A stretch of DNA of 55,906 nucleotides from an uncultured SAR86 cluster bacterium (GTDB taxonomy: Bacteria; Pseudomonadota; Gammaproteobacteria; Magnimaribacterales; D2472). Position 1 is the first letter of the stretch; every line of letters starts with the position of its first letter. The stretch lies in the NCBI GenBank assembly GCA_902513515.1, contig CABXNE010000006.1, forward strand, positions 1-55,906, written 5' to 3'. Made by a program: the position numbers and the translations under genes. Of this stretch, positions 3,696 to 11,333 are shown piece by piece. The notes under the pieces are model-generated. The model worked only from the letters and a program-made list of their open reading frames with translations. It was not told the DNA's origin and searched no databases.

Positions 3696-3951
3696 GTGTT
3701 GACTCTATTTCCCAAAGGCGTATATTTAATAGACCAACTCGGACCGACTTACAAACAACTGCAGACGGGAGTAAGAGAGAAAGAGAAGGAAGAGACGAAG
3801 GGCGAAAGCGATACTAAGAGTCGACGATAAAAAAGAGCTTAGTAACCCACCAAGAAGGAAAGAGAAAACCTTCAAGGAGCTAAAGAGATTCTCACTTTAG
3901 ACCCCTTCCAATCTCGAACTGAAAAGACAGAGCCTGGCTCTGTTTTTTTTT
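3696..3951 (+). repeat. 256-bp direct repeat, copy A (RNA gene unit)
   Basis: From GTGTTGACT to the terminator T-run this unit matches 5528-5783 base for base as far as I can read; the only difference is one extra T at the end of the run here. It includes promoter, transcribed region and terminator, so the repeat boundaries coincide with a complete transcription unit. Flanking sequence on both sides resembles the other copy only loosely (T8 upstream; an AAATT-containing stretch downstream). It is more GC- and purine-rich than its surroundings and has no transposase or terminal inverted repeats. Confidence 0.93.
3699..3726 (+). promoter_or_regulatory. Sigma-70 promoter of RNA copy A
   Basis: TTGACT is followed after 16 bases by TATATT. 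This is a near-consensus vegetative promoter predicting a transcription start at about 3733. It is identical in copy B. No operator is evident. Confidence 0.75.
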
Positions 3952-5476: not shown

Positions 5477-5530
5477 AATACTGATTTGAGGTAATTTTTT
5501 TAATTAATATATTTTTTTTACACTTAGGTG

Positions 5531-5558
5531 TTGACTCTATTTCCCAAAGGCGTATATT
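5531..5558 (+). promoter_or_regulatory. Sigma-70 promoter of RNA copy B
   Basis: TTGACT, 16-base spacer, TATATT, identical to copy A. Predicted transcription start is about 5565. Confidence 0.75.
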
Positions 5559-5564
5559 TAATAG

Positions 5565-5783
5565 ACCAACTCGGACCGACTTACAAACAACTGCAGACGG
5601 GAGTAAGAGAGAAAGAGAAGGAAGAGACGAAGGGCGAAAGCGATACTAAGAGTCGACGATAAAAAAGAGCTTAGTAACCCACCAAGAAGGAAAGAGAAAA
5701 CCTTCAAGGAGCTAAAGAGATTCTCACTTTAGACCCCTTCCAATCTCGAACTGAAAAGACAGAGCCTGGCTCTGTTTTTTTTT
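5565..5783 (+). ncRNA. Structured non-coding RNA, copy B (unknown family)
   Basis: Same transcript as copy A, with the same helices shifted by 1832 bases. Because promoter, body and terminator are all preserved, both copies should be expressed and give the same RNA. The LacI-type HTH/glucokinase gene starts 78 bases after the T-run, so this copy too sits upstream of a same-strand gene. That leaves open a cis (leader) as well as a trans (sRNA) role. Confidence 0.75.
5757..5783 (+). terminator. Intrinsic terminator of RNA copy B
   Basis: Same ACAGAGC-CTG-GCTCTGT hairpin as copy A, followed by nine T. Confidence 0.9.
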
Positions 5784-5861
5784 GCCATGAGGAAATTCTA
5801 TTAAATATATTTAATGCAATCTAAGAACATATTAAGATACATTACTTATATTCAATAAATC

Positions 5862-6968
5862 ATGTCAGTCACCATAAAAGATGTTTCTAAAGATGCAGGA
5901 GTATCCATTAGAACTGTTTCACGAGTTATTAACAACGAACCAAATATTGCACACACTACAAAAAGTAAAGTTTTGATTTCAATAGAAAAGCTTGGTTTTA
6001 AACCCAACAAAAGTGCCCAGACTTTAAGGTTAAATAAATCCTATCTTGCTGGCAGAGTTTTACTGATTGATATTGGCGGAACAAACATTAGATCGGCTCA
6101 AGCTGATGTTGGTTCAAATGACTTACAAAATGTTAATAAACAGAAGCTAGATTCCTTGGATTCATTTGATGAGATCTTGTTAAATTTTCTAGATGCAGAC
6201 TCATCTATAAAACATATAGTTTTTTCTATAGCTGGTCCAAAATTTAATAATTCTATTTCAATGACAAATAGAAAATTTACAATAGACAAAGAAAAGATTT
6301 TAAAAAATTTTTCTATAGATTCATGCCATATCCTTAATGATTGGGAGTCGATAGGCCACAGCTTTTCTCTTTTTACAATAGATGAAATGAAGATAGTTAA
6401 TCCAGGAAAATCTTTTAATGATGCAGCATTAATTATTGGGCCAGGAACTGGCTTGGGCGCAGCTCAGGTCATTGGGGATGACATTGTTCTCCCAACTGAA
6501 ATTGGTAACAGCTCATTTAGAATCCCAAGCTTGTTAAGCGAATTAGGTATCTTAAATGATACAAGTTTTAATGTTATTGAGGATTTAATCTCTGGAAGAG
6601 GGCTATCAAAAATTTATTCATATTTTGCCAACGCTAAAAAGACTTCAGAACAGATAGTTGCAACCTACAATCAAGATCAATTTTCTCAAAAGAGTATAAA
6701 TATATTTTTAATAGCCTTCTCTCAAATTCTCTCTGAGCTTGCCTTGATATATATGCCAGGAAAGGGAATATATATTATGGGAAGTTTAATGCGTAATTTG
6801 CATAAATTTCTTGATACTGAAATTTTTATGAATAATTTTTTGATAAATAGAAAATCAATGCATGCAGATATCTTAGCTCAAATACCAATAGCATTAATTG
6901 AGAATGAAATGACTTGTTTGCATGGTAGCTTAAATTTCATCAACAAATTAAACCAAAACGTCAATTAG
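5862..6968 (+). CDS. LacI-type HTH fused to a glucokinase-like domain
   Basis: 368 residues. Residues 1-60 are a LacI-family DNA-binding head (VTIKDVSKDAGVS-RTVSRVIN, then KLGFKPN-A-LR hinge). The usual periplasmic-binding-type sensor is replaced by a Glk-family sugar kinase fold from about residue 66: phosphate loop LIDIGGTNIRSAQAD, catalytic base region HILNDWESIGHS (Asp160), adenosine loop IGPGTGLGAAQV and ISGRGLSKIY. The sugar-binding E-G-G-H of E. coli-type Glk reads E-I-G-N here (213-216), so a Gly and the His are replaced. The protein may therefore sense glucose rather than, or as well as, phosphorylate it. The downstream neighbour is pgl, which supports a role in glucose/6-phosphogluconate metabolism. 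Glk-RpiR and ROK-MarR-type fusions are known; I do not recall a LacI-Glk one. Confidence 0.8.
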   Translation: MSVTIKDVSKDAGVSIRTVSRVINNEPNIAHTTKSKVLISIEKLGFKPNKSAQTLRLNKSYLAGRVLLIDIGGTNIRSAQADVGSNDLQNVNKQKLDSLDSFDEILLNFLDADSSIKHIVFSIAGPKFNNSISMTNRKFTIDKEKILKNFSIDSCHILNDWESIGHSFSLFTIDEMKIVNPGKSFNDAALIIGPGTGLGAAQVIGDDIVLPTEIGNSSFRIPSLLSELGILNDTSFNVIEDLISGRGLSKIYSYFANAKKTSEQIVATYNQDQFSQKSINIFLIAFSQILSELALIYMPGKGIYIMGSLMRNLHKFLDTEIFMNNFLINRKSMHADILAQIPIALIENEMTCLHGSLNFINKLNQNVN

Positions 6969-6970
6969 CC

Positions 6971-7606
6971 TTGGAAGACTCTATTTTACAAAGCCTCTCT
7001 GAGTCTATAGCCAATTCATTAAAGAACGGTATTAAGATTAATGGTTCAGCATCATTTGTCGTTTGTGGTGGGAAAAGCCCATTACCGTTATACAAATGCT
7101 TGAGCAGGATAGAATTAGATTGGTCTAAAATTTCAATTTTTTTAGGTGATGATAGGGTGGTTTCTTCAGCGCATGAAGATTCAAATGTGAATCTAATTAA
7201 AAAAAATCTATTGATAAATAATGCTAGCAAAGCTTCATTTCATGAGCTTAATGTTAGTAATACCATGCAACAAATCAACCATCCTTTTGATGTCGTTTTA
7301 CTTGGGCTTGGTAGCGATGGCCACTTTGCATCTTTATTTCCAGCCCAACTTAATTTAAATAATGCATTTGATGTTAATGCTCCACCAGATTTAATACTAT
7401 CCGAGCAGCCTTTAGGCTCTCCAAGCTATCATCGTATTTCTATGAATCTTTCGCTATTGCTCAATACAAATCGTTGTATATTGTTGGTAACAAATTCAGA
7501 TAAAAGAAGAATTGTTGAACAAGCATATACAGACGACCAATTACCTTTGCATTTTTTACTAACCCAAGATAAATCAAAGATTGAATTTTCAGATCTTGAT
7601 TTTTAA
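6971..7606 (+). CDS. pgl: 6-phosphogluconolactonase
   Basis: 211 residues of the Pgl/glucosamine-6-phosphate isomerase fold: VVCGGKSPLPLYKCL near the N-terminus, FLGDDRVV at about residue 57, DVVLLGLGSDGHFASLFP at about residue 113 and a LLVTN-DKR strand near the C-terminus. It hydrolyses 6-phosphoglucono-lactone in the pentose phosphate and Entner-Doudoroff pathways, in the cytoplasm. The start is a TTG two bases after the upstream stop, so it is coupled to the HTH/glucokinase gene. No zwf or edd/eda is in the window. It is slightly shorter than typical Pgl (about 230 residues), but no core motif is missing. Confidence 0.88.
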   Translation: MEDSILQSLSESIANSLKNGIKINGSASFVVCGGKSPLPLYKCLSRIELDWSKISIFLGDDRVVSSAHEDSNVNLIKKNLLINNASKASFHELNVSNTMQQINHPFDVVLLGLGSDGHFASLFPAQLNLNNAFDVNAPPDLILSEQPLGSPSYHRISMNLSLLLNTNRCILLVTNSDKRRIVEQAYTDDQLPLHFLLTQDKSKIEFSDLDF

Positions 7607-10190: not shown

Positions 10191-11333
10191 TTATTTCTTC
10201 TGTTGCTCGGTTTCATCCCGATGCTTTTTTAGGTAGGTCATAAAAGGAGTCCCGCCAGTTCCCGTGATTGTAGAGCCACCTCTGCCAAAAGGGTTTTCAA
10301 TTTGAGATTGCTTATGAATGTAGGTCCCTGCATATTCAAGGTGCATTGCTCTGAATGCTCTGATTTCTTCAAGGCAGTCATTGTATTTATCAGTAAGTTT
10401 CTTTGAATCTTGCACAAGATTTTTAATCATTGAAGTTTTTTCAAGTGAGGCAATAAACTTGCGATGTTTAGGGGGCATATAATCCCTCATCTCATTTAAG
10501 TAATGCCTTAGATGATCTTTTGTATGTGAGATTTGCAATGCACCATCTAAAGATGGAATGATGCTGCTTTGAGCTCCTGTTTCCCCTCTAAAAAATTGGG
10601 GTTTATTATCAAACTGACCTTCATATACAAGGCCTTTTTTAAGATCAGGGTTATCTTTCGTACCAAAAATAAAAGGGCGCACACGATGATAGTAAATATA
10701 TGGATCGCATTTCTCAGGCATTCTTGCAAAAATTGAATTAACTTTTTGCATTGAATCTACTATTTGTTTGAATAATTTTAATATTTCTTTTTCAGATGAA
10801 TCTTTATCACATTGAGATATTTTTTTGCAGGCTTCTATGGCTCCTGAGGCAGCATCTTCTATACAAACATGAATTGTGACAAACCAATCCTCGTCAACTC
10901 CGCCTAAGAAGTTATTTATTAAACCAACATTTTCTAATGATATATCTTCATCTTTGTTAATTAAAAACCAGTTATCTAGGCAATAACTTGCATAACTTAA
11001 AATTGGAGGCCTGCCTTGATGATTTGCAACCTCAACCCATGGTTTTGCAAGAGCCTTAGGTAATTTGCCATGAGGTTTTATATCACCCCATATATATGCG
11101 TGAGCTATAAAGCTGAGTTGTGACATAGCAAGTTTCAGATCCTGTCCCATTTGATTTACCAAAAGTTGCTTAATGGATAAATCTTTCTTTGAAAGTTTAT
11201 CTATGGTTGACTGAACTTTTCCTGTTAATAATAATTTTGGAAGGTTATTGCATATTTCTTCTATTCTTGAGCATGAATGAGAGTCTACTGAGTATGATTG
11301 TGCCGGTGTATTTTTTGGCAAGAAACCTTTCAT
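10191..11333 (-). CDS. Indoleamine 2,3-dioxygenase (heme)
   Basis: 380 residues matching the indoleamine 2,3-dioxygenase family. An all-helical body contains RPPILSYASYCLDNW, the loop FRGETGAQSSIIPSLDGAL, HLRHYLNEMRDYMP and the proximal heme His region RAMHLEYAGTYI, followed by the GTGGTPFM loop. The enzyme opens the indole ring of tryptophan to N-formylkynurenine, the entry to the kynurenine route. It lies 61 bases downstream of, and on the same strand as, the CinA-like/nucleotidylyltransferase gene, which hints at NAD metabolism. No kynurenine formamidase, hydroxylase or kynureninase gene is in the window. IDO-like proteins also occur in bacteria as tryptophan-catabolic enzymes. Confidence 0.88.
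   Translation of the reverse strand: MKGFLPKNTPAQSYSVDSHSCSRIEEICNNLPKLLLTGKVQSTIDKLSKKDLSIKQLLVNQMGQDLKLAMSQLSFIAHAYIWGDIKPHGKLPKALAKPWVEVANHQGRPPILSYASYCLDNWFLINKDEDISLENVGLINNFLGGVDEDWFVTIHVCIEDAASGAIEACKKISQCDKDSSEKEILKLFKQIVDSMQKVNSIFARMPEKCDPYIYYHRVRPFIFGTKDNPDLKKGLVYEGQFDNKPQFFRGETGAQSSIIPSLDGALQISHTKDHLRHYLNEMRDYMPPKHRKFIASLEKTSMIKNLVQDSKKLTDKYNDCLEEIRAFRAMHLEYAGTYIHKQSQIENPFGRGGSTITGTGGTPFMTYLKKHRDETEQQKK

Follow-up and report, generated by a model that had tools for sequence, protein, structure and literature searches.

Sugar-kinase folds that carry their own DNA-binding domain are known from the ROK repressors, such as Mlc, NagC and Lmo0178, in which a helix-turn-helix (HTH) stands ahead of the fold, and from the Glk-RpiR regulator/glucokinase (PRK14101 / NF010701), which likewise holds a glucokinase and an HTH regulator in a single chain. 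In Caulobacter, GluR has a predicted regulon of zwf-pgl-edd-glk together with pykA (PMC4052901).

Here we describe a gene from an uncultured SAR86 cluster bacterium in which the DNA-binding head of a LacI repressor precedes a glucokinase (Glk). It lies within a contig stretch of 55,906 nucleotides, referred to throughout as the window. The combination of LacI and Glk is a new domain pairing of narrow distribution, and a literature search, with subscription papers outside its reach, found no description of a LacI-glucokinase fusion. Through comparison with related genomes we arrive at the view that the protein is probably a SAR86-specific fusion left behind by the collapse of a glucose-utilisation operon, that is, a sugar kinase with a dispensable LacI head.

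Results

Structure of the fusion gene

The gene, its domains and its downstream neighbour are as follows:

5862-6968, plus strand: LacI head-Glk fusion open reading frame, 368 aa
5862-6008, plus strand: LacI-type HTH, residues 1-49, identified by PF00356, by the relatives' lacI heads and by the headpiece fold
6009-6047, plus strand: LacI hinge segment KSAQTLRLNKSYL, residues 50-62, retained
6045-6056, plus strand: fusion joint L-A-G-R, residues 62-65, placed by the limits of similarity
6057-6965, plus strand: glucokinase domain, residues 66-368, identified by PF02685 and by fold match
6971-7606, plus strand: pgl, 6-phosphogluconolactonase, with a TTG start (TIGR01198, 134 bits; cut-off 124)

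In Pfam, residues 4-49 match LacI (PF00356, E 9e-15, 54.6 bits against a cut-off of 27) and residues 67-359 match Glucokinase (PF02685, E 6e-44, 150.8 bits against 22.1), the latter almost over its full length (profile positions 1-310 of 314). There is no Peripla_BP match in the fusion protein, the LacI effector core being replaced by Glk, and the ROK domain (PF00480) falls below its cut-off (E 0.057, 13.4 bits against 22.9). LacI similarity stops at about residue 62 and Glk similarity starts at residues 60-66; the initial annotation was right to begin the kinase at residue 66. The recognition helix of the head reads SIRTVSRVINN (residues 15-25), and the pgl start codon lies 2 bp beyond the fusion stop codon.

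AlphaFold models agree with this architecture. Modelled alone, the head matches the LacI-family headpieces of CcpA, RbsR, Lac and PurR, with a hinge region that is predicted to be helical; the kinase half, also modelled alone, matches the fold of E. coli Glk (1sz2/1q18, best 1sz2), and its fold matches include Mlc (1z6r) and Lmo0178 (5f7q), in which the sugar-kinase fold comes with an HTH. A model of the whole chain left the head unresolved (pLDDT about 31) and is uninformative on how it packs against the kinase. Pfam, the models and TIGR01198 thus bear out the original description of a LacI head on a glucokinase fold, paired with pgl.

Distribution and authenticity

We searched 26 SAR86 genomes of the same genus, and the fusion is present in four: intact in the window genome (G000), in G019 (96% identical to the window fusion) and in G012 (77%), and with a decayed head in G006. 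The remaining kinase-bearing genomes have an unfused enzyme, which matches from residues 54-64 onward only. The four fusion genomes form one clade of the kinase tree with support of 100/100, resolved as (G000, G019) and (G012, G006). They are 64-82% complete, and hence their missing parts could hold operators and genes; that the four are concordant and their loci contiguous offsets this incompleteness in part.

A chimera of single-cell amplification, or an assembly join at the identical IMES-1 repeats described below, might be suspected from the 256-bp exact repeat that adjoins the fusion locus and from the G019 contig, which stops 33 bp before the start codon. However, the fusion is intact and collinear in three separate assemblies, with an identical in-frame joint at 96% and 77% identity, and is therefore no assembly error; its flanks are present in G012 (L032) and a decayed version exists in G006 (L033). 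An artefact is refuted for the head-kinase joint, and we consider the chance of one to be negligible.

Outside the genus, where another fusion was defined by one match spanning both halves, samples of 369 Gammaproteobacteria and 399 Pseudomonadota yielded none, nor did plasmids or phages, within the limited reach of the query. A single high-coverage plasmid match was rejected because it spans 2 kb for a 1.1-kb query and so looks like two neighbouring genes. The earlier impression that the LacI-Glk combination is new accordingly stands, with no further case among some 750 genomes or plasmids sampled from Pseudomonadota.

Origin from an ancestral operon

Relatives with the full locus have lacI (335 aa) on the minus strand and then, on the plus strand, an SSS sodium:solute symporter gene, glk, pgl (in some) and GH3. 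Identity between the fusion head and that of this divergent lacI is 67-77%, and the fusion kinase, an orthologue of stand-alone Glk, is 55-67% identical to the operon glk within the genus. In SAR86E, for example, the orthologous kinase (L035:7947-8930; 67% identical) has the same active-site motifs as the fusion but no LacI head, and its operon is complete, with an operator and a divergently oriented full-length lacI. The full-length LacI of this locus (L035:5327-6334) represents the source of the fusion head; it has a periplasmic-binding-protein sensor core where the fusion has Glk. At the fusion-clade locus the LacI core, symporter and GH3 are all gone, as is pgl in G012 and G006, and neither a full-length LacI of the parent type nor an SSS symporter was found in the four fusion-clade genomes, which are 64-82% complete.

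These comparisons suggest an ancestor with a full-length LacI repressor divergent from a symporter-glk-pgl-GH3 operon. They show that, in the ancestor of the four genomes, a rearrangement took away the sensor core of LacI together with the symporter and GH3, and joined lacI at about codon 62 in frame to glk at about codon 13. Since the relatives' lacI lies on the opposite strand from glk, an inversion is needed besides the deletion, and we infer that the event combined the two.

The locus varies in other ways across the genus. A second clade (G004, G007, G011, G017, G021; L038, L041-L044) has lost lacI and kept symporter-glk-pgl-GH3, and the operator before the symporter was lost together with lacI. 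In L036 (6874-6942) pgl is cut to a C-terminal fragment, residues 189-211. Both pgl and zwf are patchy, several genomes having pgl without a detectable zwf. The window also encodes an indoleamine 2,3-dioxygenase family protein (10191-11333, minus strand; PF01231, E 7e-88) that is conserved at this position across the genus.

The region upstream of the fusion holds a pair of IMES-1 RNA genes:

3738-3927, plus strand: IMES-1 RNA (RF02034) copy 1, identical to copy 2
5570-5759, plus strand: IMES-1 RNA (RF02034) copy 2, 196.3 bits, directly upstream of the fusion gene

The identical block of the two units is 256 bp long (3696-3951 and 5528-5783) and takes in sequence resembling a promoter and a terminator. 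L032 (G012) and L040 likewise have identical pairs, and L041 and L042 near-identical ones, an indication that IMES-1 RNA undergoes concerted evolution or gene conversion in SAR86. Lying beside the rearranged segment, here and in G012, the repeats may have helped the rearrangement; being direct repeats, they leave the inversion unexplained. Our literature search found no paper on the function of IMES-1 RNA.

The predicted parental regulon and its probable loss

A conserved palindrome, TTGACAACGATATCAA, in the relatives' lacI-symporter intergenic region is the predicted ancestral operator. In LacI-bearing genomes, genome scans recover it at just this site, and variant copies lie between pyk and gap-zwf and ahead of a conserved gene of 80 aa. 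The product of the latter (MKKEELVEIF...) belongs to no known Pfam family, and the gene is probably part of the parental regulon because a LacI operator precedes it in five genomes (L064-L067; L062, site 1501). From these predicted operators, the parent LacI probably repressed glucose uptake and central sugar metabolism. In regulon content it would resemble Caulobacter GluR, having predicted sites at glk-pgl and pyk/gap-zwf.

The fusion genomes contain 0-2 two-mismatch matches to TTGACAACGATATCAA each, the level of the reversed-pattern control, and those inspected in G000 and G012 lie within coding genes; the scans found none upstream of the fusion gene. No zwf (glucose-6-phosphate dehydrogenase, G6PD) was found in any of the four fusion-clade genomes, at 64-82% completeness, and in the genus it was found in only six of the 26 genomes. 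The proposal of the initial annotation that the protein regulates 6-phosphogluconate metabolism is therefore unsupported, with operators at control level and absent beside the fusion gene, no G6PD found, and pgl itself lost in two of four members. Absent operators and lost target genes together lead us to infer that the LacI head has dropped its ancestral regulon.

A candidate for a new operator lies ahead of the fusion gene:

5800-5815, strand not applicable: palindrome ATTAAATATATTTAAT, perfect and consisting of A and T only, 46 bp ahead of the start codon

It is partly kept in G012 and G006, and exact in G012 by a degenerate pattern. Two readings of the upstream sequence were rejected. The palindrome ATTAAATRTATTTAAT, considered as a genome-wide operator, is present at the fusion promoter and hardly elsewhere, with counts at control level. 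The shared upstream word AAGAACATA had hinted that the fusion gene inherited the lacI promoter, but local alignments are no better than dinucleotide shuffles (z no more than 1.6, against 7.7-15.3 for controls).

Kinase active site and selection

The principal active-site features are:

6069-6086, plus strand: phosphate-1 loop DIGGTN, residues 70-75, kept
6336-6341, plus strand: N159-D160, equivalent to E. coli Glk N99-D100, D160 being the catalytic Asp
6498-6509, plus strand: E-I-G-N, residues 213-216, where E-G-G-H is expected
6579-6581, plus strand: E240, equivalent to E. coli Glk E187, kept

In line with the earlier observation on nucleotide loops and catalytic Asp, the fusion kinase retains its phosphate loops, N159, D160, E213 and E240. 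Four of the five sugar contacts of E. coli Glk (N99, D100, E157, H160 and E187) are conserved, the equivalent of H160 being Asn. Within E-I-G-N, only this H-to-N change, which is clade-wide, costs a contact to glucose. The motif is present as first reported, but it does not set the fusion apart: outside one outgroup family (f2), x-G-N stands at this position in nearly all glucokinases of SAR86, unfused enzymes included, and E-I-G-N is hence a SAR86 family trait. G-S in the adenosine loop was likewise dismissed as a fusion-specific change, being present in unfused SAR86 enzymes. Kinase omega is 0.07-0.25 in the fusion clade, indicating purifying selection at or slightly above the 0.06-0.21 of relatives.

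Judged by its retained active-site residues and by purifying selection, the fusion product most likely behaves as an ordinary kinase that uses ATP to phosphorylate a sugar, presumably glucose. That the domain instead acts as a sensor or phosphorylates a different sugar, with H-to-N marking the switch, might be read from the Asn itself and from a score far below the cut-off of the glucokinase equivalog TIGR00749 (98.7 against 225). We regard this as improbable, given the same Asn in nearly all SAR86 glucokinases outside f2, the four glucose contacts, phosphate loops and catalytic Asp that persist under purifying selection, and operons whose symporter, GH3 beta-glucosidase-like enzyme and pgl point to glucose.

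Constraint and decay of the LacI head

In G006 the HTH has been disrupted by a one-base deletion (frameshift), a stop, and Pro and Asn replacements at invariant columns, while the kinase open reading frame remains open (312 aa, read from a later ATG); the head is therefore dispensable. Between G012 and G006, omega is 0.72-0.86 for the head and 0.25 for the kinase. Between G000 and G012, head omega is 0.19 (interval 0.07-0.38), equal to that of the kinase, and the fusion head is looser than the parent LacI (0.02-0.06). The heads of the three HTH-bearing genomes have 15 amino-acid differences over 63 positions, compared with about 46 in a neutral simulation in which 94% of runs had a stop. DNA-contact residues, taken from Lac repressor on the assumption that the list transfers to this head, are the same in G019 as in G012 (P 0.02 when 60 residues are considered, 0.09 when 50 are). 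Such constraint suggests function, or at least the need for a folded head, in the window species, G019 and G012, where the protein may still bind DNA weakly or regulate its own gene.

Each fusion head is nevertheless altered at 3-6 columns that do not vary across the LacI heads of 16 relatives, most of them hinge columns or residue 31; the hinge has 2-3 such changes, and its core, NKSAQ-LR, is kept. These observations bear on an alternative in which the protein is a working regulator-kinase: Glk, which is a homodimer in E. coli, would dimerise two LacI heads on an operator, perhaps at 5800-5815, and binding of glucose and/or ATP would alter DNA affinity, giving glucose-responsive autoregulation of the fusion and pgl, akin to Mlc/NagC (ROK fold plus HTH) by convergence. 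The constrained head with its DNA contacts, the intact hinge core, the palindrome that recurs exactly in G012 under a degenerate pattern, and Mlc and Lmo0178 among the fold matches all accord with this. Against it, the recognition helix is unchanged but ancestral operators are not detectable; ATTAAATATATTTAAT is without the CG found at the centre of LacI-family operators, is not repeated elsewhere in the genome and, where overall GC is 34%, consists of A and T only; LacI-invariant hinge columns have changed; and G006 has lost the head with its kinase reading frame undamaged. We think a working regulator-kinase unlikely, if worth serious consideration.

Discussion

The fusion looks like a lineage-specific evolutionary by-product of operon collapse, in which the kinase was kept and the head left without its old targets, and not like an established new kind of regulator. 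After such a collapse the kinase would be the part that matters, and residual autoregulation would be possible. A more speculative idea, which we hold to be rather unlikely, is that of a recently born one-protein glucose switch, in which a competent glucokinase serves as dimeriser and sensor and the gene is autoregulated through a new AT-rich operator. If true, this would be an independent origin of the regulator-kinase design of ROK repressors, in a lineage where both the genes it came from and a decayed sister can still be seen.

Within one genus it is possible to see the intact operon, an operon lacking repressor and operator, the fusion, and a version of it whose head has decayed. This offers a natural test of how one-protein regulator-kinases originate, and of whether such fusions turn into switches or are transient by-products of genome reduction. 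A further lesson is that a domain fusion should not be taken as a regulatory circuit without checking relatives.

Compared with the systems already described, the SAR86 protein differs from Glk-RpiR, whose HTH is of the RpiR type (with a SIS domain) in a chain of about 638 aa; the fusion protein matches the Glk part of NF010701 only, at 72 bits against a cut-off of 920. The ROK repressors share with it the order of HTH and sugar-kinase fold, but their kinase domain is of the ROK and not the Glk family, and their HTH is different from that of the fusion.
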